From positions 1-22,704 of the IMG/VR virus record IMGVR_UViG_3300034418_004872: a stretch of DNA of 22,704 bases. One strand, written 5' to 3'. The stretch is from a virus. Made by a program: the position numbers and the translations under genes. Shown here in pieces: positions 6,294 to 22,365 of this stretch. Positions within the stretch are counted from its first letter, which is position 1. Every line of letters begins with the position of its first letter. Below the pieces are notes generated by a model. It searched no databases, was not told the DNA's origin, and saw only the letters and a list, made by a program, of their open reading frames with translations.

Positions 6294-7073
6294 ATGATAG
6301 ATTTAAGACAAGGTGATTGTCTACAAGAAATGCAGAACATACCTGATAAAAGTATTGATGCAATAATATGTGATTTACCTTATGGTACAACTCAAAACAA
6401 ATGGGACATCATAATACCATTAGATAAACTTTGGGAGCAATACAATAGAATAATAAAAGAACGTGGTGTTATTGTTTTATTTGCCCAAATACCATTTAGT
6501 TCTATTCTTGGTGCAAGCAACATAAAGATGTTAAAATATGAATGGATATGGCAAAAAGACCAAGGTACTGGACATCTAAATGCTAAAAAAAGACCAATGA
6601 AAAACCACGAAAACATATTAGTTTTTTACAAAAAATTTGGCACTTACAATCCTCAAAAAACAAATGGACATAAACCAACTAATGCAAGCAGAAAAAATGA
6701 CGTAGATACAGGAGTTAGAAACTACGGTAAATATATTGACAAAGGTGGTAGGGGCGGAAATACAGATAGATACCCTTTATCTATTTACAGATGCAATACA
6801 ATAAACGGATTTAGCAAAACAGAACCATCGCAACATCCAACACAAAAACCAATAGCTTTGATTGAAATGCTTGTAAAAACTTACACTAACGAAGGAGAAA
6901 CCATACTTGATAATACAATGGGAAGTGGAACAACGGCAATAGCTTGTGTAAATACAAACAGAAACTTTATAGGCATTGAACTTGATGAATCTTATTTTGC
7001 AATAGCAAAAAAGAGGGTGGAAGAAAAAAGAAAAGAAAAAGACTTGCAAGTACAAACTTTATTTGGAACATAG
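6294..7073 (+). CDS. DNA amino-methyltransferase, DLPYGTT type (cassette 1)
   Basis: This 259-aa beta-class methyltransferase has the catalytic motif DLPYGTT at residues 27-33, HPTQKP at 181-186 and the SAM-binding LDNTMGSGTTAIA at 205-217. The N-terminal MIDLRQGDCL is typical of the family. It is clearly paralogous to the 20867-21637 enzyme: same length, same motifs at nearly the same positions, shared blocks such as MKxHENILVF and NTNRN. It differs much more from the 120-755 enzyme. It runs opposite to the surrounding backbone and is bounded by inverted repeats. The leader (6205-6293) has a pyrimidine tract and a GAGCGGTGGC stretch. Likely an orphan methyltransferase carried as cargo for anti-restriction; base and site unknown. 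Confidence 0.88.
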   Translation: MIDLRQGDCLQEMQNIPDKSIDAIICDLPYGTTQNKWDIIIPLDKLWEQYNRIIKERGVIVLFAQIPFSSILGASNIKMLKYEWIWQKDQGTGHLNAKKRPMKNHENILVFYKKFGTYNPQKTNGHKPTNASRKNDVDTGVRNYGKYIDKGGRGGNTDRYPLSIYRCNTINGFSKTEPSQHPTQKPIALIEMLVKTYTNEGETILDNTMGSGTTAIACVNTNRNFIGIELDESYFAIAKKRVEEKRKEKDLQVQTLFGT

Positions 7074-7225: not shown

Positions 7226-7630
7226 ATGGAAATATACAAAACAACAAATAAAATAACAGGCGAATATTACATTGGCTTAAATTCAACGTCTAATCCGAAA
7301 TATTTAGGAAGTGGTGTTGAACTTAAAAAACAAGTAAAAAAATACGGAAAAAAAAATTTTATAAAGGAAATATTATGCTTGGTCACATCTAGTTCAACAG
7401 ATGAGAATATTTTAAGAAAAATAGAACACGCTTATATATATAATCATATACAAAATAAAAAATGCCTAAATAAATCTATCGGTTATACAAAAGGCAAAAA
7501 AGAAGTTGAAATAAAATATATTGAAGTTGAGAAAATTATTGAAGTTGAAAAAATTATTGAAATTGAGAAAGTTGTGTATAGACCTGTTACTTTAGGAAGA
7601 AACTTATCAGCATTATTATCAATGGAGTAG
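7226..7630 (+). CDS. GIY-YIG nuclease, homing-endonuclease type
   Basis: This 134-aa protein opens with the GIY-YIG fold as in free-standing phage homing nucleases of the Seg type: EIYKTTNKITGEYYIG (2-17), then YLGSG (26-30), a basic helix LKKQVKKYGKKNF (33-45) and KEIL. IEHAYI (66-71) offers the metal-binding glutamate. Residues 99-116 are three tandem copies of the hexapeptide I-E-(V/I)-E-K-(I/V), a charged linker. The C-terminal YRPVTLGRN segment may touch DNA. The last six residues and the stop are encoded by the 27-bp direct repeat, suggesting the gene arrived as a unit that overlaps the repeated sequence. It probably promotes its own spread, and that of its neighbours, by cutting phages that lack the insert. 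Confidence 0.78.
   Translation: MEIYKTTNKITGEYYIGLNSTSNPKYLGSGVELKKQVKKYGKKNFIKEILCLVTSSSTDENILRKIEHAYIYNHIQNKKCLNKSIGYTKGKKEVEIKYIEVEKIIEVEKIIEIEKVVYRPVTLGRNLSALLSME
7520..7573 (+). repeat. Three 18-bp coding tandem repeats in the nuclease gene
   Basis: Three imperfect 18-bp copies encode I-E-V-E-K-I, I-E-V-E-K-I and I-E-I-E-K-V. The copies differ at a few bases with conservative or no amino-acid change. They form a flexible or beta/coiled linker between the nuclease domain and the tail. Confidence 0.75.
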
Positions 7631-7710: not shown

Positions 7711-7842
7711 TTACTTAATCAACTTCATTTTATCTTTTGAACCTTGAGAGCTACCATAAAAATAATTAAAAACACCCGTCAATCCAGTCCCCACCACTAC
7801 ACCTAAAATAAAATTCACTACGTCCCTGTTTTGTTCTGGCAT
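7711..7842 (-). pseudogene. 43-aa membrane ORF, possible remnant of a holin-like gene
   Basis: From the ATG at 7842 the minus strand encodes MPEQNRDVVNFILGVVVGTG, then LTGVFNYFYGSSQGSKDKMK and LIK: one hydrophobic helix and a basic Ser/Gly tail. This looks like the C-terminus of phage holin-type membrane proteins, where a final membrane helix is followed by a GSS-x-GS-K tail. The frame stays open upstream into flank A (an artificial Ile-rich stretch), so the original 5' end may have been replaced when flank A was inserted at 7852. It may also be a small intact lysis gene. It is the only minus-strand coding piece inside island 1. Confidence 0.45.
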
Positions 7843-7851
7843 CTCAATGAA

Positions 7852-7903
7852 AAATAATAATATAATAATAATTATTAAAGAATATTTTGTATATTTGCTA
7901 ACG
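7852..7903 (+). repeat. Flank A, copy 2 (52-bp direct repeat)
   Basis: Copy of 6092-6143 with one mismatch. Here the mismatch restores a perfect TATATTTG box (7890-7897). It starts 9 bp after the start codon of the 43-aa ORF, whose upstream sequence it appears to have displaced. Confidence 0.9.
7890..7897 (+). promoter_or_regulatory. Putative rightward promoter box TATATTTG in flank A
   Basis: TATATTTG matches the Bacteroidota -7 consensus TAnnTTTG. It would drive transcription rightward through the palindrome into the 69-aa gene, implying that flank A supplies the promoter for whatever payload is present. No clear -33 TTTG lies about 20 nt upstream. In copy 1 the box is TATATTCG. Confidence 0.4.
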
Positions 7904-8013
7904 GTTTGTATATGAAACGTTGCAAACCGAAACCTAATAGATAAACACAAAGAATTGAATTATAAATTAACTTAAAAAAAGACCACTAAAGCAATGTTTT
8001 ATATACGTTGTTA
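7899..8013. repeat. Imperfect palindrome 2 (TAACGG...TTGTTA)
   Basis: The left arm TAACGGTTTGTATATGAAAC-GTTGC pairs with the right arm GCAATGTTTTATATACGTTGTTA over about 23 bp with a small asymmetry and two mismatches. The loop is about 67 nt. The outer sequences match palindrome 1, while loop length and content differ. The conserved arms and variable interior suggest a functional folded element rather than a chance repeat. Confidence 0.65.
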
Positions 8014-8023
8014 TATGGCGTTA
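8009..8023. repeat. Left inverted repeat of cassette 2
   Basis: TGTTATATGGCGTTA matches the reverse complement of 8227-8241 (TAATGCCACATAACA) at 13 of 15 positions. It lies just inside the palindrome, at the position that TGTTACCTAC holds in cassette 1. The outer TGTTA is shared; the inner bases are payload-specific. Confidence 0.6.
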
Positions 8024-8029
8024 TTTAAA

Positions 8030-8239
8030 ATGGCAAAAATTAGTGAATTACCAATACAAAAGTTTATAAGCGATGACATTGATAATTGTTTTTACATTGA
8101 AGATATGAACCAACCTACTATGAAAGTGGTAAGGATGCAAAGTGTTTTTGATTGGATAAAAGATGAAGCAAACAAGAACGGACTAACAGTTAAAATGACT
8201 GATGAAAGAATAATGTTTATTAGTGGTAATGCCACATAA
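8030..8239 (+). CDS. Cassette 2 payload: 69-aa protein, unknown
   Basis: This is a 69-aa protein starting MAKISELPIQKFISDDIDNC and ending RIMFISGNAT. I chose the ATG at 8030 because the upstream in-frame ATGs (7994 and 8015) lie within the palindrome arm and inverted repeat. The MAKISELP opening recalls N-termini of phage fibre-type proteins, but here it is a complete small protein with an acidic strand-helix pattern (YIEDMNQPTMKVVRMQSVFDWIKDEA). It occupies the position that the methyltransferase holds in cassette 1. Its last codons overlap the right inverted repeat. Function unknown. Confidence 0.6.
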   Translation: MAKISELPIQKFISDDIDNCFYIEDMNQPTMKVVRMQSVFDWIKDEANKNGLTVKMTDERIMFISGNAT

Positions 8240-8241
8240 CA
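8227..8241. repeat. Right inverted repeat of cassette 2
   Basis: TAATGCCACATAACA is the partner of 8009-8023. It covers the last codons and stop of the 69-aa gene and runs into flank B. Confidence 0.6.
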
Positions 8242-8325
8242 TGTTATAAACGAATAAACGTCAAAGCAAAATGAACTCATTTACAACTACTTACGATATG
8301 ACACATAGGCATAAAGTATATCATT
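8237..8325 (+). repeat. Flank B, copy 2 (89-bp direct repeat)
   Basis: Copy of 7091-7179 with two mismatches. Its right end includes the stop codon of the holin gene (8321-8323), so the phage backbone resumes exactly here. Copy 1 continues instead into the second palindrome arm. Confidence 0.92.
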
Positions 8326-8791
8326 TTTTACGCATATTCTGTATCTTTTCAAGGGAACGCCCTCCAAAATAAGCTGCATAAATTAGTAATAACAAAGATG
8401 AAAGTAAATCTATCCACTCATTTTTTACGACAAACCCAACTACCGAACTATCTATAACAATATAAATAGCCATTGAAATAGTTAAGAATATTAAAGCCAT
8501 TGGTCTCACATTTTTAGATAACCAACTATCTGATAAATTATCACTTTCCCAACGCTTAGTTATCTCCTGAGACTCCATTATATCCATTTTAAGCAACTCT
8601 AAGGCAATTTCCTTATCTTCTGGACTGATAGTATCGGTTTTACTTATTGCGTCTCCTAGCTTATTTAAAAGACTAAAACCTGTAACACTTCCCGCTAAGT
8701 TTAGAATATCTGGTGCGACTCCCTTTATAGATCGTAAAAAATCTCCAGCTCTTGTAGTTCCGTTTCGTTCTTTATAGCTTTTATCTGGCAT
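8321..8791 (-). CDS. Holin-type membrane protein (phage 3TM holin family)
   Basis: This 156-aa protein has a polar N-terminal half (about residues 1-95). The segment WLSKNVRPMALIFLTISMA follows (about 93-111) with two hydrophobic stretches, and the tail is LLIYAAYFGGRSLEKIQ. A helical cytoplasmic part, then a WxxxxVRPxxL motif and a C-terminal membrane hairpin is the layout of the 3TM holin family found in phages and gene-transfer agents. It would pore the inner membrane to release the endolysin, whose gene is 5 nt upstream. The stop codon lies within flank B. Confidence 0.72.
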   Translation of the reverse strand: MPDKSYKERNGTTRAGDFLRSIKGVAPDILNLAGSVTGFSLLNKLGDAISKTDTISPEDKEIALELLKMDIMESQEITKRWESDNLSDSWLSKNVRPMALIFLTISMAIYIVIDSSVVGFVVKNEWIDLLSSLLLLIYAAYFGGRSLEKIQNMRKK

Positions 8792-8796
8792 AGTTT

Positions 8797-9243
8797 CTAA
8801 TTAAAATATAATTCAGCTTCTTCGGCTCTACGTTTTTGAAGTCCTTTAAGTACCCTACCTCCAGCACGAACCCATTTCTTAAATTCATTTGAGATGCTTT
8901 CATCACACGGATCAATATTTATTTTTTTCAACAAAGTACTTTTCTGCAATGCCCCAACTCCTAAATTATAAGCGAAGGAAACTAAAGCATCGAACTGGTT
9001 TTGGCTTAATTGATATTGTACATATCTATTAACCCCGTCTTCATAGCTCGTTAGCATATCGCGTAGTAAGTCTTCAGCACGTTCCTTTGTGATAGGGTCA
9101 TCATTCATTGTTACCCTTTTACCTCCAGGATAATAAGTTGCCCCATATCCAATCGTAGGTACTCCTGCGGGACATAAATAAGGTTTAGCCATAAACCCCT
9201 CATATTTTTTTATAAGTTCTAATCCATTTATACCTGTTTTCAT
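8797..9243 (-). CDS. Endolysin, GH24 T4-type lysozyme (muramidase)
   Basis: This 148-aa protein fits the whole GH24 domain. The catalytic pattern is Glu15, Cys24 and Thr30 (E-x8-C-x5-T), the cysteine variant of the usual E-x8-D-x5-T triad. It is followed by TIGYGATYYPGG. Further conserved blocks are QNQFDALVSFAYNLGVGAL (about 81-99) and GLQKRRAEEAELY near the end. It hydrolyses peptidoglycan beta-1,4 bonds. There is no signal peptide or SAR segment, so release should need the adjacent holin. Start ATG overlaps the XhlA-like gene by 4 nt. Confidence 0.92.
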   Translation of the reverse strand: MKTGINGLELIKKYEGFMAKPYLCPAGVPTIGYGATYYPGGKRVTMNDDPITKERAEDLLRDMLTSYEDGVNRYVQYQLSQNQFDALVSFAYNLGVGALQKSTLLKKINIDPCDESISNEFKKWVRAGGRVLKGLQKRRAEEAELYFN

Positions 9244-9879: not shown

Positions 9880-9992
9880 CTATCGTCTGGACGATTCCCA
9901 GTAGTTCTATCATCGGGACGATTCCCAGTTGTACGGTCATCAGGTCTGTTACCTGTTGTTTTTTCTTTCGGTGTTTCTTTTTCTTTCTTCAT
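9876..9992 (-). CDS. 38-aa protein of three identical nonapeptide repeats (TTGNRPDDR)
   Basis: Hand translation gives MKKEKETPKEK followed by three exact copies of TTGNRPDDR and a stop. The three 27-nt copies use different codons almost everywhere, yet encode the same nine residues, so selection has kept the peptide. It begins 2 nt after the SGNH-hydrolase stop and overlaps the next gene (ATGA), so it is embedded in a translated operon. The protein is highly charged and surely disordered; the N-terminus is Lys/Glu-rich. Function unknown; a multivalent binding peptide or an accessory to lysis or tail assembly is possible. Confidence 0.72.
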   Translation of the reverse strand: MKKEKETPKEKTTGNRPDDRTTGNRPDDRTTGNRPDDR

Positions 9993-9994
9993 AA

Positions 9995-11320
9995 TTATTT
10001 TATTTCTCTTAAAACTGAATTAGCCATTTTTAAATGTCCTGCGTTATTTGGATGCAAACCATCTATTGTATAACTAAACACATTGTAAAAATTAATACCA
10101 CTTTCACCATATAAATCAATAACTTTTAAAGAATACATTTCACCAAGTTCTTTAATGGCATTTACATAATCTATTAATTTATGACCTGCCGAATTTGTGT
10201 ATTCAATCGTATAACCGCTATTATCTCTTTGAATTGGTGTTATTAAAAATACTTCACAATCTACATTTGATGTTTTTATAGCGTTTAAAACTGTTCTATA
10301 GGCACCATAAAAAGTCGCAGTATCAAAAGTTGTATCTGTGATACTTCCAATAGTTCCAATACTTCTATTTAGTTTAAAGTCATTTGTACCGTGTGCAATA
10401 GTTACCAAATCTTTAGCTGAATAATCATAAGCCGAAATTTGTACATAATTATCAACTGCCATTGATTTACCACTCGCACCTTGATTATCGTAAGAATTAA
10501 AAACAAGAGTTCTTGCTAAAGTTTGAATGTAACCAACACACATTTCTCCACCTCCTGTACCACCGCTTTGATTACCTGCTAATGTATTACCATCATACCA
10601 AGTAATAGAATCACCACAATTAACAGCATCAGCTTGATAAAAACGATTTGGATTTCCTAAACTGTTAAATGCTATTTCTAAATTATCAATATTCGTGTAA
10701 ACTTCTGTTTCAATATAATCTGACTTACTTGTTATCCTTACATATTTAGCACCCGTTGGTATTTGTATAAACCTATCTGTAAAAATACCATCTACGCTAT
10801 AAACTAAAGATTCTGTACTCATCCAAGCAGTAAATTCATCATAAAAGTTTATTGCCGACGCATTTAAAACAGCTAATGCAAATCTGTACGTTGCATAGAA
10901 ATCGCCAATTTCTAATAAATCAGTTGTCATAGCATTTACATTTGCTATATATGCGCCACTTGAATTAATATAACCAATATTAGGAAATGTATAATTTGTT
11001 TTTGTTTTATCTAAATAAGTATTAGCATCAACTTTCGCAGTTATAATACTATTATTTGAAACTTCTACTTCTAAATTTGTTACTCTATTTTTTAATAGTG
11101 TATATAAAAATATCTCATTAGTATCAGCACCCGTTTGCCTCCCACAGCATTGTATTTTATAATCATAATCATAAAATATAATTGTTCCTATTTTTGGGTC
11201 TGTACTATAAATTACCTCTTGAATTACATCACTTGAATTATAAATTATTATACTTGCGTAAGGTGAACCAGGTAGAGCAGTTGCATTAAATAAAAAACCG
11301 TTATTAGCATCAATAGGTAT
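9995..11320 (-). CDS. SGNH/GDSL hydrolase, tail-associated; start codon unclear
   Basis: The C-terminal domain is a clear SGNH esterase. Counting from the ATG at 10930, block I is CGDSIT (Ser108), block II QGASG (150-154), block III AHGTND (Asn183) and block V TIDGLHPN (Asp290, His293). The catalytic triad is intact. It probably deacetylates or de-esterifies surface polysaccharide as the virion binds. The frame is open for another 130 codons above 10930 with protein-like content, including GYINSSGAYIA leading into the annotated part, so the protein likely has about 441 residues. No ATG, GTG or TTG is present there. The upstream gene ends AAATAATACC, so an ATA at 11320 lies where the genome's usual TAATG overlap would put ATG. 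Confidence 0.8.
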   Translation of the reverse strand: MPIDANNGFLFNATALPGSPYASIIIYNSSDVIQEVIYSTDPKIGTIIFYDYDYKIQCCGRQTGADTNEIFLYTLLKNRVTNLEVEVSNNSIITAKVDANTYLDKTKTNYTFPNIGYINSSGAYIANVNAMTTDLLEIGDFYATYRFALAVLNASAINFYDEFTAWMSTESLVYSVDGIFTDRFIQIPTGAKYVRITSKSDYIETEVYTNIDNLEIAFNSLGNPNRFYQADAVNCGDSITWYDGNTLAGNQSGGTGGGEMCVGYIQTLARTLVFNSYDNQGASGKSMAVDNYVQISAYDYSAKDLVTIAHGTNDFKLNRSIGTIGSITDTTFDTATFYGAYRTVLNAIKTSNVDCEVFLITPIQRDNSGYTIEYTNSAGHKLIDYVNAIKELGEMYSLKVIDLYGESGINFYNVFSYTIDGLHPNNAGHLKMANSVLREIK

Positions 11321-11883
11321 TATTTAGTTGTACCATCAGCATTTAAAATTGTTGATGATAATGTTCCTGTAATATCAGTAATAGAACTTTTATCAACAAT
11401 ATCCCAATCAAAAACAGTTCCACCACTAACCGCATCTACATTTCCATCTTCAATAACCCCGTTAACCGCATTTGTTTGTTGAGTGTATGCCGTTCCATCA
11501 CTTGAATAGTCTCCGTTTTTAGAAGTATCAGAATCAGCTATTACTTTATAAGCCGTTCCCGAAACTCCAGTTGCACTTGCCGCAATCATATCGGCATAGG
11601 TTTCAAAATAAAGAACCCCGCTAATTTGATTTAAATTTAATAGTGCAACATCAGACTCTATTGTATCAAGGTCAACCGCCTGCGTCACACTTACAAATCC
11701 TAATTTTGTTAAATTTGCAGATGTTGTAAATTTGTTAGTAGTTGAAGTGTCATCTAAATCGTCTGGGTCTAATGTTACAACTCCTGTTTGAGAATTTACA
11801 CTTAAAACAGAAACATCAGAGGTTTGCACGAATAAAGAAACTACCTCCTGTGAATCTACTACTGTTACTTGTATTTCTTCCAT
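11320..11883 (-). CDS. Tail fibre-like structural protein
   Basis: This 187-aa protein contains SVNSQTGVVTLDPDDLDDTS (about residues 28-47), a motif very common near the N-terminus of phage fibres (VNGQTGxVxLxxxDV). It is followed by Ser/Thr/Asn/Asp-rich, Cys-free beta sequence. It sits between the BppU-N-like protein and the SGNH hydrolase, consistent with a baseplate or fibre component. Its start touches the stop of the preceding gene (TAATG). No enzymatic motif. Confidence 0.6.
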   Translation of the reverse strand: MEEIQVTVVDSQEVVSLFVQTSDVSVLSVNSQTGVVTLDPDDLDDTSTTNKFTTSANLTKLGFVSVTQAVDLDTIESDVALLNLNQISGVLYFETYADMIAASATGVSGTAYKVIADSDTSKNGDYSSDGTAYTQQTNAVNGVIEDGNVDAVSGGTVFDWDIVDKSSITDITGTLSSTILNADGTTK

Positions 11884-12239
11884 TATGCTGTCGTTACATC
11901 TTGAATTACACTAACTAAACCTTCTACGTATGTTTTAATCCGCCCATCACTAAAAGTAATTTGAATATCATAGTAGTATTTATCTACCGCCCAATCTACG
12001 GGTGTAAACTCATCTATTTCTAACACTCCACCAGTAGCATCTGTAACTGTAATTCCTGAACCGTCTGTAATTGTTTTAACGGCAGCCCCCGTTCTAGTTC
12101 GATATCTAAATTGACATCTTACAGTTGCCCCCGTCAAGTCTATTGGGTCTCCGATTCCATCTGCAAATGTGAACGATACACTACTGAAAGTGTCATTTTT
12201 AATCCTATCTTTTAAATTACTCGTTTGTATTGATGCCAT
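11883..12239 (-). CDS. BppU N-terminal-like baseplate protein
   Basis: I start this 118-aa protein at the ATG at 12239 (MASIQTSNLKDRIKNDTF), not at the further upstream ATG at 12308. The longer form would overlap the fibre gene by 59 nt with an unrelated N-terminus. The core KNDTFSSVSFTFADGIGDP followed by IDLTGATVRCQFR is the signature of BppU N-terminal-type beta-sandwich domains, which link receptor-binding proteins to the baseplate. An immunoglobulin-like strand pattern follows (YYYDIQITFSDGRIKTYVEG). Confidence 0.65.
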   Translation of the reverse strand: MASIQTSNLKDRIKNDTFSSVSFTFADGIGDPIDLTGATVRCQFRYRTRTGAAVKTITDGSGITVTDATGGVLEIDEFTPVDWAVDKYYYDIQITFSDGRIKTYVEGLVSVIQDVTTA

Positions 12240-12249
12240 ATTTATATTT

Positions 12250-14241
12250 TTAAGCTGATACCCAAGCTGATCCGTTGTAAAAAACAGGTACTGTAATAGC
12301 ACCTCCACCCGTTAGAGTTCCATTATATGTAGGGGCAGTAGCGTCTGTTACGTAGGCTCTCATCCCTACAACTCCTGTTGGCAGTGTCGCTACTGTATAA
12401 CCTCCCGTTGCTATTGTTGTATCAAAAGTTGCATTACCATTTTTAAGAATGATTAACGCGTCGTTCCTAGTTCCTGTTCCCGTTCCATTTCCTACAACAA
12501 AGAGTCTATCTGTTGCGTCAAAAGCAGTTGTACTTGTAGGTGTATATGCGGTACTAAATAATCCAGCGCGAAATTCACAGAAAGAAGGTGCTTCGTTGTT
12601 ATAATTAGCTGAAAAAGAATTATTACCGCTTGATGTATTTCCCGACCCAGAAGCGAATGAGTTAGTCCCACTAGCTACGGTAGAAAATCCAAACGCCTGA
12701 GTTTGAGAACCTGTCGCCGTCGTATTTCTTCCAAAAGATATAGATGAGTTACCGTCTGCATTTCCAGAAGTGTCGTGAAGTCCCCATACCATAGAACCAC
12801 TCCCTACTGATGGTGTAGTGCCTCCGCCAAAAGAACCTATCTTCATATAGGTATTATTAATTTCAGTAGCTCCAAAACCTCCTCCAGAAGTCCATTTTAT
12901 AGGAGTGTACCCAGTTATTTCAATTTCATCAGCTACATCATCTATGGTTATATGGGTAGATGCAGAATTAAGATAACCTCCTAGTTTGACAATTAAATCA
13001 TCTGCTGCTTGCGTTCCTGTTTCACTATATCCCTCCAAAACAAGATTAGTTGCTGATACGATTGGTCTTAATGGGTCTGAACTATCTACTGTCACATTAG
13101 TACCTGCTACAACCTCTAAAACAGATTGAGCATTAGTAGGATTTGCCACACCCCCAGTTATATTGATAACGTCTAAGTTTATAATAGGACTGTTAACAGT
13201 TTTTATACTTAATATGTCATATTCAGTAGGAGGTACTCTGCTGTCTGAAACAAACTCATTTAAAGGCACTCTAATTAATTGCCAAGCATTACTAGTGACA
13301 TCAAACCCGTAATCTCTTAACGTTTCAAATGTTAATACAAATCTAAAGTATTTAGAACTAGAGCTATTAATTAATTCTAGTTCAATTTTAGGATTAGTTT
13401 CTACCGCTTCGGGGAATTTCATAGCAAAGTTTAAACTACCTTCTGCATCGTGTGCAAACATCGCATCCTTTTGCCATTTAGTAGTTCCGCTAGTTGTAGC
13501 GGGTAAATACAAACTATAAGTCCCGCTATATGGAGCTGTTGTATAGTTTAAATTTGCTGAAGTGGCTAGTAATATATTATCCCATTCGTTAGTTTCGCCT
13601 AGATTTTCGTTATAAATTAATTCAGCCGTAAAGTCTGGGTCTGTTGTCTCATTATCTAGCACCAATTTAAAACTAACTTCCACTTGCGTAGATAGATTTA
13701 ATGAGGGCTTGATAGGTGATACAGCTGGCGTCCCCTCAACTACAACAATAGAAGCTACTGGAGGGTCATCTGTTGTTATCTCCACCGCAAATACATCTAT
13801 TCGGGAGTTAGTTGCATCCCCATCGCTTAAAGTAACAGTATCTGATACATAATCAGTATAAACCTGGTTGTTAATTATATATTTAGACGCGTATATGGTA
13901 TAGTTTAAACCGCTTCCTGTATATATTACACCGCCTTTTATAATTGCATTTCCACCTAACAAATCTGTGTAAGTCGGTAGTGTAGTTAATTTTAATTCAG
14001 GAACTCCTAAACTATTATAAGTCACAGCGGGTACAAATCCTGTCTTCCCTACGTAAGTACTATCGTTTACGTCTCTTAATTTCAAGAAACTAAAAAGCGT
14101 GTCTTTAATAGTTGCCCAAGTTAATTTTTTTGAAGTTCCTTCAGTTGAATCTGTTGTATCTGAAACGTCTACCGAATGAATGAAATCGGAATTTACAGGG
14201 TCTAAATGATAATCTTTGTCTGATAATTTTTGATTTGCCAT
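12250..14241 (-). CDS. Tail fibre/adhesin with YadA/Hep_Hag-like head repeats
   Basis: This 663-aa protein is the largest in the window. The N-terminus (MANQKLSDKDYHLD, TWATIKDTLFSFLK) resembles fibre attachment ends. The middle is beta-rich. Near residues 500-550 are repeats of the type ATGSQTQAFGFSTVASGTNS and FASGSGNTSSGNNS, matching the G-x-x-(S/A)-x-A-x-G pattern of trimeric YadA/Hep_Hag heads. The tail VGMRAYVTDATAPTYNGTL, then VPVFYNGSAWVSA, is a common phage-fibre tip. It probably forms a trimer that recognises the host surface. It lies 8 nt after the tail-tube-like paralogue. Confidence 0.72.
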   Translation of the reverse strand: MANQKLSDKDYHLDPVNSDFIHSVDVSDTTDSTEGTSKKLTWATIKDTLFSFLKLRDVNDSTYVGKTGFVPAVTYNSLGVPELKLTTLPTYTDLLGGNAIIKGGVIYTGSGLNYTIYASKYIINNQVYTDYVSDTVTLSDGDATNSRIDVFAVEITTDDPPVASIVVVEGTPAVSPIKPSLNLSTQVEVSFKLVLDNETTDPDFTAELIYNENLGETNEWDNILLATSANLNYTTAPYSGTYSLYLPATTSGTTKWQKDAMFAHDAEGSLNFAMKFPEAVETNPKIELELINSSSSKYFRFVLTFETLRDYGFDVTSNAWQLIRVPLNEFVSDSRVPPTEYDILSIKTVNSPIINLDVINITGGVANPTNAQSVLEVVAGTNVTVDSSDPLRPIVSATNLVLEGYSETGTQAADDLIVKLGGYLNSASTHITIDDVADEIEITGYTPIKWTSGGGFGATEINNTYMKIGSFGGGTTPSVGSGSMVWGLHDTSGNADGNSSISFGRNTTATGSQTQAFGFSTVASGTNSFASGSGNTSSGNNSFSANYNNEAPSFCEFRAGLFSTAYTPTSTTAFDATDRLFVVGNGTGTGTRNDALIILKNGNATFDTTIATGGYTVATLPTGVVGMRAYVTDATAPTYNGTLTGGGAITVPVFYNGSAWVSA

Positions 14242-18929: not shown

Positions 18930-19328
18930 TTATGCCGTTGTGAATGATGCTGCTACTGATAACTGTCCTGCCACGTACCAATTAACGCCGTCGCTTTCAA
19001 GTGTAAACCAATCGCCTTGAATTGCTTTTGTAAATACTATTGTGATAGTAGTTTCAGCTGATGCTAATTGTACTAAACCTGCTTCCGTTACACTTCCGTA
19101 AATTAAAGCTCCTGTCGCTGCTACAGTCCAAGAACTTGTTATAACAGCTGCTGTTACTAGAAATTTATAATTTACCCCAGCTTTTGGCGCTGGCAAAGTA
19201 ATCGCTTCGCCTACTGCGTCAAGTAAAATTGTTTTACCACTGTCGCTGTATGTCAACGTAGTGTCCGCTGTGACCGATTTTTGATCTTGATTCGCGTCTA
19301 ATTGTCTGTATGAAATTGTTGTGCTCAT
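18930..19328 (-). CDS. Capsid-associated (decoration-like) protein
   Basis: A 132-aa beta-rich protein with strands TISYRQLDANQ, DTTLTYSDSGKTILLDA, VTAAVITSSWTVAATGALIY and GDWFTLESDGVNWYVAGQL. It has no Cys and few helices. Placement between protease/scaffold and major capsid genes is the usual site of head decoration or stabilising proteins. Its GxWFTLESDGxNWYVxG ending also resembles beta-trefoil or fibre-tip repeats, so an alternative is a surface fibre on the head. It overlaps the protease gene by one base (TAATG). Confidence 0.58.
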   Translation of the reverse strand: MSTTISYRQLDANQDQKSVTADTTLTYSDSGKTILLDAVGEAITLPAPKAGVNYKFLVTAAVITSSWTVAATGALIYGSVTEAGLVQLASAETTITIVFTKAIQGDWFTLESDGVNWYVAGQLSVAASFTTA

Positions 19329-20866: not shown

Positions 20867-21637
20867 ATGATAGATTTAAGATTGGGCGATTGCCTTGAAG
20901 TAATGAAAACGATTGAAGATAATAGTATTGATTTGATACTTGCAGATTTACCATACGGAACAACCGAATGTAAATGGGACAGCATAATACCACTAAATGA
21001 ATTATGGCAACAATACAAAAGAATATTAAAAAAAACAGGTTGTATTGTTTTAACAGGAACACAGCCTTTTACAACTAAATTAATAAGTAGTAATTACGAT
21101 ATGTTTAAGTATGAGTTAATTTGGGATAAGGTTTTACCTACTGGCTTTGCAAACGCTAAATATCAGCCAATGAAGCAACACGAAAACATATTAGTTTTTG
21201 CAAATGGTAAAACAACATACAATCCACAAAAGATAAAAAGAGATAAGCCAAGAAAATATAATAGAACTCATAAAAAATATGAAGGAAGTGAAAATTTAAA
21301 AGGTGGACACGATGGCAAAGATAGAATTTTAGAATACTACGAACCAAGAAGTATCCAGAAATTTAGCAATGCCAACCAAAAGAAAAAAGTACACCAAACA
21401 CAAAAACCTTTACCATTGTTTGAAATGCTCGTAAAAACATACTCAAACGAGGGTGAAACTGTTTTGGACAATACTATTGGAAGCGGAACGACTGCTATTG
21501 CTTGTATGAATACAAATAGAAACTGTATAGGAATTGAAAAAGATATTGACATTTACAATCTTGCTAAAAAAAGGGTGAAAGAAAAAAAAGAAGAAAAAGA
21601 TAATGAACCACCAACTTTATTTAATGCACAGACCTAA
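20867..21637 (+). CDS. DNA amino-methyltransferase, DLPYGTT type (island 2)
   Basis: This 256-aa beta-class methyltransferase has catalytic DLPYGTT at residues 27-33, HQTQKP at 176-181 (a variant of HPTQKP) and the SAM-binding LDNTIGSGTTAIA at 200-212. Its start MIDLRLGDCLE and the block MKQHENILVF align with the 6294-7073 enzyme throughout, while the central region (about residues 125-170), likely part of target recognition, differs. The two are paralogues of separate specificity or separate acquisition. No restriction partner is nearby. It is followed directly by the cassette-end-like sequence at 21638. Confidence 0.88.
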   Translation: MIDLRLGDCLEVMKTIEDNSIDLILADLPYGTTECKWDSIIPLNELWQQYKRILKKTGCIVLTGTQPFTTKLISSNYDMFKYELIWDKVLPTGFANAKYQPMKQHENILVFANGKTTYNPQKIKRDKPRKYNRTHKKYEGSENLKGGHDGKDRILEYYEPRSIQKFSNANQKKKVHQTQKPLPLFEMLVKTYSNEGETVLDNTIGSGTTAIACMNTNRNCIGIEKDIDIYNLAKKRVKEKKEEKDNEPPTLFNAQT

Positions 21638-21687: not shown

Positions 21688-22365
21688 ATGAAAAAATGTA
21701 CTAAGTGCGGAGAAACTAAAGAACTAAGTGAGTTTAATAAAACTAAAAACACAGCTTCAGGAGTTCATTCTTGTTGTAAATGTTGTGATAAAAAGTGGAG
21801 AGAAGAAAATAAAGAAGATACAAAAATAAAACAGAAAGAATACCGTGAAGATAATAAAGAAAAAATAAAAATAAAACAGAAAGAATACCGTGAAGATAAT
21901 AAAGAAAAAATAAAAATAAATCGAAAAGAATATTATCAAAATAACAAAGAAAAATTTAAAAGATACCGTGAAAATAACAAAGAAAAAATAAATGAGCGGA
22001 TGAGAAAATATAAAAAAGACAGAAAAAAAACAGACCCATTATTTAAGTTAACTTGTAATTTAAAAACAAGAACTAGTCTGGCTTTTAAAAATAAAAATTG
22101 GATTAAAAATGGAGGCAGCGAGCAACTACTAGGTATAGATTATGAGCGTTGCAAGCTACATTTAGAACGCCAGTTTACTAATGGTATGAGTTGGGATAAC
22201 TACGGTGACTGGCATATAGATCACATTATACCTTTATCATCTGCAACTACTGAAGTAGAACTACGTAAGCTATGCCACTATACAAACCTACAACCATTAT
22301 GGGCGTATGATAATATGTCTAAGGGCGCTACAATGCCAGAGGTACAAATACAATTAAGAGTTTAG
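21688..22365 (+). CDS. HNH endonuclease with zinc finger and lysine-rich repeats
   Basis: This 225-aa protein begins with a zinc-finger-like region (Cys4, Cys7, then a CCKCC cluster at 29-33) of the kind found in phage HNH homing-type nucleases. Residues 46-90 are a 15-aa repeat (KIKQKEYREDNKEKI twice, then a degenerate KINRKEYYQNNKEKF), forming a long basic helical arm. The HNH core is at the end: GMSWDNYGDWHIDHIIPLSS (His176, His179), TNLQPLW (Asn200) and DNMSKG (Asn209). It likely cuts DNA to spread itself, or nicks DNA as an accessory. It converges on the tape-measure gene with a 5-nt gap. Confidence 0.82.
   Translation: MKKCTKCGETKELSEFNKTKNTASGVHSCCKCCDKKWREENKEDTKIKQKEYREDNKEKIKIKQKEYREDNKEKIKINRKEYYQNNKEKFKRYRENNKEKINERMRKYKKDRKKTDPLFKLTCNLKTRTSLAFKNKNWIKNGGSEQLLGIDYERCKLHLERQFTNGMSWDNYGDWHIDHIIPLSSATTEVELRKLCHYTNLQPLWAYDNMSKGATMPEVQIQLRV
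21823..21957 (+). repeat. Tandem 45-bp coding repeat in the HNH gene
   Basis: Two nearly identical 45-bp copies (21823-21867 and 21868-21912) and a third diverged copy (21913-21957) encode the 15-residue charged unit. The near identity of the first two copies suggests recent slippage or duplication, so copy number may vary between relatives. Confidence 0.8.

Follow-up and report, generated by a model that had tools for sequence, protein, structure and literature searches.

In an uncultured phage, the coding frame of an SGNH-hydrolase adhesin abuts the end of the neighboring gene for a fiber stalk, with ATA in the place where relatives often have ATG, so that the gene is initiated weakly at ATA, is deprived of its start, or is the latter half of a single broken gene; the junction is unusual, whereas its parts are ordinary. 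The analyzed window is a whole IMG/VR record of 22,704 bases, and the SGNH locus lies on its minus strand. The SGNH frame runs uninterrupted from 11323 to its stop codon at 9997-9995; 310 further codons follow its first ATG before this stop. The stalk ORF terminates at the TAA 11322-11320, within AAATAATACC. A canonical start codon is absent from the overlap of the two frames. The codon found there is ATA, one letter away from ATG, and its position at 11320 yields a gap of -1 to the stalk ORF, as in coupled gene pairs (-1 or -4). The features of the locus, all on the minus strand, are as follows.

11320..11883, minus strand: stalk ORF (fiber stalk/attachment protein) of 187 aa, just upstream, with relatives in 44 viral loci
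11324..11326, minus strand: in-frame TAA closing the SGNH frame upstream, from frame reading
11318..11322, minus strand: TAATA, in which the stalk stop TAA 11322-11320 shares one base with the in-frame ATA 11320-11318 of the SGNH frame
10931..11323, minus strand: extension of the SGNH frame, 131 codons without ATG, GTG or TTG, coding by codon bias
10928..10930, minus strand: first ATG of the SGNH frame, probably an internal methionine, inside the beta-type domain and with a poor upstream context
10715..10993, minus strand: beta-type (jelly-roll-like) domain, residues 111-203 of the extended protein, from a profile match
10034..10615, minus strand: SGNH/GDSL hydrolase domain (PF13472) with blocks GDSI, GASG, GTND and DGLHP

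An initial sequence-only reading had described an SGNH frame that extends far upstream of the ATG at 10930 with no ATG, GTG or TTG. This description holds for all 131 codons (11323-10931). The coordinates and sequences it quoted are right, including the stalk end within AAATAATACC, and its linker motif GYINSSGAYIA occupies residues 117-127 when the frame is translated from 11323. We consider it somewhat better than an even chance that the locus comprises two neighboring genes of one adhesin operon, one for a short stalk or attachment protein and one for a separate SGNH adhesin starting at the stalk stop.

Coding content and domains of the SGNH frame

The 131-codon extension is real coding sequence, because its codon bias matches the value for the SGNH core and because the coding signal changes frame at the junction. 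The bias is 0.612 bits per codon in frame versus -0.18 and -0.19 in the other frames, and 0.624 bits per codon in the core. Scored in 30-codon windows, the signal is carried by the stalk frame (0.83) before the junction and by the SGNH frame (0.70) after it, with no decay of either frame ahead of the switch. The earlier claim that the extension encodes protein-like sequence is thus borne out. Of 2000 first-order Markov sequences matched in composition, none stayed open across 132 codons. Inside window genes, 15 of 2255 stretches of 131 codons had no start-like codon. A first start-like codon at least 100 codons into the frame was observed in two of 290 closed frames of at least 250 codons, this one and L006:8895-9671, in a survey of 816,671 bases of related loci plus the window, where many loci overlap and the frames are therefore non-independent. 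The frame L006:8895-9671, located after an ORF at 7750-8922, is glycine-rich and fiber-like, comprises 258 codons, lacks any start codon, and looks like a broken fiber gene.

The SGNH/GDSL hydrolases share a scheme of catalytic blocks, namely GDS, G, GxND, and DxxH. The window protein matches the PF13472 profile with 61.2 bits (curated cut-off 32.9), and its catalytic blocks are intact, with GDSI at residue 237, GASG at 282, GTND at 312, and DGLHP at 421. Residues G237, D238, S239, G285, N314, D421, and H424 are invariant across alignment A4. Assignment of the frame to a fiber-type SGNH protein, also proposed from the sequence alone, is supported as well. The closest SGNH sequence found belongs to a Bacillus chungangensis protein (54% over residues 262-435), which suggests transfer of the SGNH domain across phyla. 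Predicted structures were too poor for use, with a mean pLDDT of 50.5 for the SGNH frame (below 50 for residues 1-156) and 31.5 for the stalk.

The end of the extension lies within the beta-type domain, which precedes the SGNH domain, as beta-type domains do in other phage SGNH proteins. It was detected with a profile of 13 domain copies from eight phage or viral proteins (L002, L080, L083, L088, L089, L092, L093, and L094), at 26.3 bits with the HMMER composition correction and 32.0 bits without it; the latter score was reached by none of 1000 shuffles. The ATG at 10930 corresponds to residue 132, inside this shared domain, which is matched on both sides of it; therefore, this ATG is probably not the original start. 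The sequence-only reading would have been contradicted by homologues that begin at the equivalent of 10930 and lack the homology upstream. No homologue beginning there was found.

Stalk relatives and the variable adhesin cassette

The stalk ORF is characterized by MEEIQVTVVDSQE..., the SVNSQTGVVTLDPDDLDDTSTTNKF motif, and ...DAVSGGTVFDW.... Among its relatives in 44 viral loci, 36 have a complete ORF and eight are truncated at the edge of a contig. A TAATG overlap (gap -1) leads into the next gene in 16 of the 36 complete cases, although these counts are non-independent, as near copies are present (L028/L029 and L017/L018). The genes after TAATG mostly encode separate adhesin-like proteins of approximately 260-440 aa, and the downstream proteins inspected at 13 loci mostly belong to one family beginning with MSLYQKASLVQIPSGYKA or similar. 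In L017 and L019 the gene after the stalk instead encodes a 134-aa protein of a different type, and the one in L018 is equally long. Three of the 36 stalks are as short after the motif as that of the window (at most 104 residues), and two of these (L031 and L011) lead via TAATG into a separate adhesin-like gene. Such cases led us to reject the notion that the stalk ORF is too short for an independent gene.

Positional counterparts of the stalk ORF are the MAEEIQV-type genes that follow the phrog_1084 gene in L050-L056. In five portal-related phages, the gene after the phrog_1084 homologue adjoins its neighbor at gap -1 in L052 and L054, and the same boundary has other short distances in L050, L051, and L056. 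Elsewhere in the window, gap -1 occurs in the gene pair just upstream (11883) and also at 19328 and 3410. Because TAATG is frequent both in the stalk relatives and in the portal-related phages, the TAATA of the window occupies a place where a start codon often sits. The comparison with TAATG overlaps made in the sequence-only reading was thus apt, the exact overlap being present in both sets. The window resembles the pairs of stalk and TAATG adhesin genes (L031, L011, L028, and L033, and the portal relatives L052 and L054) in the stalk motif, the gap of -1, and the adhesin-sized downstream frame; it differs in having ATA as the overlap codon and an SGNH-family adhesin.

A widespread adhesin-like family with the V-IPSGYKA...KLYSV motif, represented by L057:4850-6568, L050:8708-10051, L031:2802-4112, and their relatives, is often found in a TAATG overlap after the stalk gene. 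Two members scanned (L057 and L031) had no Pfam match.

A homologue spanning the junction was found neither in phages (by DNA or protein) nor in viral contigs, genome contigs, or plasmids, the last compared with the SGNH part only, although records nearly identical to the window may be missing from these collections. The viral contigs were queried with the protein P0001, its N-terminal part, the C-terminal part of the stalk, and a junction peptide. The sole match to P0001 was the distant L002, with the N-terminal part uncovered. Genome contigs (query A2) yielded only stand-alone SGNH genes. The near relative L048 (98% by portal) ends approximately 30 bases into the stalk gene. L057 and L072 have a different cassette between the upstream fiber and the following 122-aa gene. 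Since they belong to the same lineage, the locus is, as judged from these comparisons, a modular adhesin site, and its joint was possibly made by recombination. When window positions 9880-12250 are compared with L057:4570-7650 and L072:14906-17986, the following genes are 98-100% identical and the adhesin cassette is wholly different, sharing only a C-terminal KTTGNRPDDR repeat tail (window 9989-9880).

The G+C content falls from approximately 35-38% to 27-31% around the junction, with the best change point at 11402 (2-log-likelihood range 11248-11465) and a log-likelihood ratio of 8.2; of 200 shuffles, 95% gave values below 5.3 and the largest gave 9.3. Such a drop is as expected of two genes of different origin, but it is broad and fits a broken gene too. 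The host is probably a member of Bacteroidota, judging by the contexts upstream of gene starts and by a short match to Olleya phage Harreka_1. The window also contains two N6/N4 DNA methylase genes on the plus strand, at 6294-7073 and 20867-21637, which are 56% identical to each other. Each is followed by a small plus-strand ORF (7226-7630 and 21688-22365) that by eye is GIY-YIG- or HNH-like and has no Pfam match. Possibly, these pairs are mobile insertions among the minus-strand genes.

One gene or two

The reading with two genes is favored by the switch of frames without decay, the intact catalytic blocks, the precedents for gap -1, and the best upstream context at the ATA 11320. It is opposed by two observations: among the TAATG relatives found here, none has its stalk followed by an SGNH adhesin, and the start of the window SGNH protein is unlike those of the adhesin genes after TAATG in relatives. 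The main competing explanation, which we regard as less probable although a substantial contender, is a single receptor-binding gene with a stalk, beta domains, and a C-terminal SGNH domain, whose frame was broken at 11320-11326 by a small indel or an out-of-frame recombination joint, either in the phage or in the assembly only. Tail-fiber SGNH/GDSL hydrolases (PHROG 11541 and 5240; L002, L088, L089, Javan585, and crAss001 gp25) have the same C-terminal SGNH domain after beta-type domains, but each is encoded by one long ORF that has an ordinary start and includes its own stalk, whereas in this contig the stalk and SGNH parts are in two frames. The joined length would be 629 aa, which fits the single ORFs of other phage groups (L002, 619 aa; L088, 658; L089, 662; L080, 607; Javan585, 630; crAss001 gp25, 782), and the single ORF of L002 carries a module that by eye resembles one in the window stalk ORF (GGYIGAFATLAELNA...NNGDYRYTGTAW versus GVLYFETYADMIAA...KNGDYSSDGTAY). 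A break would also be consistent with the abutting of undecayed frames, the G+C step near the junction, and the comparable startless fiber frame in L006, which has a 28-nt overlap with its upstream ORF. The geometry argues otherwise. A simulated loss of one base left an overlap of at most 4 nt at 1.9% of 11,582 positions in 18 window frames and at 2.8% of 1206 positions within the SGNH frame, and a gain of one base did so at 0% of positions; in addition, the in-frame codon at the overlap is one letter off ATG. A first beta domain straddling the junction is unsupported (3.2 bits, with 116 of 999 shuffles scoring as high), and joining the frames gave no gain in pairwise z-scores, which were 1.8, 1.6, -0.1, 2.7, and 0.5 for the downstream part versus 1.5, 1.4, 0.1, 2.1, and 0.0 for the joined sequence. 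A split of the first jelly-roll domain by the junction, suggested by a MAFFT alignment to L002, was dropped after the profile test and the pairwise shuffles. Moreover, SGNH genes occur as stand-alone genes (L087, 230 aa; L090, 211 aa) or with one beta domain, as in a 378-aa gene of HS6. Since the straddling domain is unsupported and such genes exist, the argument from single-ORF architecture is real but not decisive. The ranking of these readings, which multiplies the odds of a frame break or a non-canonical start per gene by those of the geometry, is our own weighing of the counts.

Two further explanations carry much less weight. The ATG at 10930 could be the true start, with the upstream 131 codons left over from a longer ancestral gene: no canonical start precedes it in the SGNH frame, all SGNH blocks are downstream of it, and SGNH proteins without beta domains exist in L087 and L090, which start just before the SGNH domain, some 80-100 residues later than a protein starting at 10930 would. 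This is very improbable, as such a start would remove the first strands of a domain matching from residue 111, the codons upstream of it are undecayed, and its upstream context is poor. By context score, the ATA at 11320 was the best of the candidate starts (1.1) and the ATG at 10930 the worst (-2.6), below 24 of 25 window gene starts, these same 25 genes having trained the score. At position -3, the ATA has A and the ATG has G; a study of Flavobacterium johnsoniae, whose mRNAs have no Shine-Dalgarno (SD) sequences, reports that A at -3 favors initiation (PMC6847099). The least credible alternative, and a highly improbable one, is that a programmed -1 ribosomal frameshift or a ribosomal hop joins the stalk and SGNH ORFs. 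The shift needed is indeed -1 and the overlap is small, but the sole possible slip point, ACT AAA TAA, is neither of the motifs required for -1 frameshifting, Z_ZZN or X_XXZ_ZZN (PMC4066793). The RNA downstream of it folds less stably than its shuffles (z +1.53), there is no homopolymer for transcriptional slippage, and RNA folding and Rfam comparison revealed nothing. Thus, of the interpretation offered by the sequence-only reading, the coding extension, the fiber-type SGNH protein, and the likeness to TAATG stand, and a frameshift of the programmed -1 type is disfavored by the missing motif.

Initiation at the overlap codon

Under the two-gene reading, the original start of the adhesin would have been at the overlap codon; in relatives, where the boundary is often TAATG, a ribosome can restart on ATG just after terminating. 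The present ATA may act in weak termination-reinitiation, resulting in a low level of the adhesin, or the start may have been lost by mutation or miscalled in the contig, the two possibilities being about equally probable. If ATA is used, the ribosome that terminates at TAA would probably itself resume translation at the overlapping codon; if it is unused, the adhesin would be lost or truncated in this genome. Overlaps of -1 and -4 are described as coupling translation (PMC10666635). Coupling by short overlaps is also reported in a second study, which found few SD motifs (10%) at overlapping pairs in Bacteroidetes (PMC6728339). More specifically, a phage of an SD-poor host might use ATA in the TAATA overlap for termination-reinitiation and so keep the SGNH adhesin deliberately scarce relative to the stalk protein, a proposal that we put forward as speculative and rather doubtful.

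Initiation on AUA at native sites in Staphylococcus aureus reaches approximately 10-30% of that on AUG, and the AUA and AUU cases there come from a study of extended SD motifs, with at least one very strong motif (PMC13009471). The window gene would, like S. aureus infC, ccpN, citZ, and cvfC1 with their AUA or AUU starts, initiate on a non-canonical codon. It differs from them in that the S. aureus starts were demonstrated by ribosome profiling or reporter assays (PMC13009471), whereas the window case is known from sequence and no SD motif was seen at the ATA 11320. In Escherichia coli, AUA efficiency is up to 1% of that of AUG (Hecht et al., 2017, as quoted in PMC12864459). A naturally occurring ATG-to-ATA change in rpoS reduced protein levels by as much as 5-fold (PMC12864459). 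A literature search on 'ATA start codon' and 'phage' gave by title no phage gene with an ATA start, which is not proof of absence.

For annotation, the consequence is that gene callers would place the start of the SGNH protein within a domain and overlook 131 coding codons. Genuine use of ATA would show that a ribosome reinitiating at a stop/start overlap can do without a canonical start, in a setting that lacks SD help, and this would be a simple way to set the dose of an adhesin. If, instead, the start was lost or the frame was broken, the locus would be an instance of adhesin variation or of a contig error.
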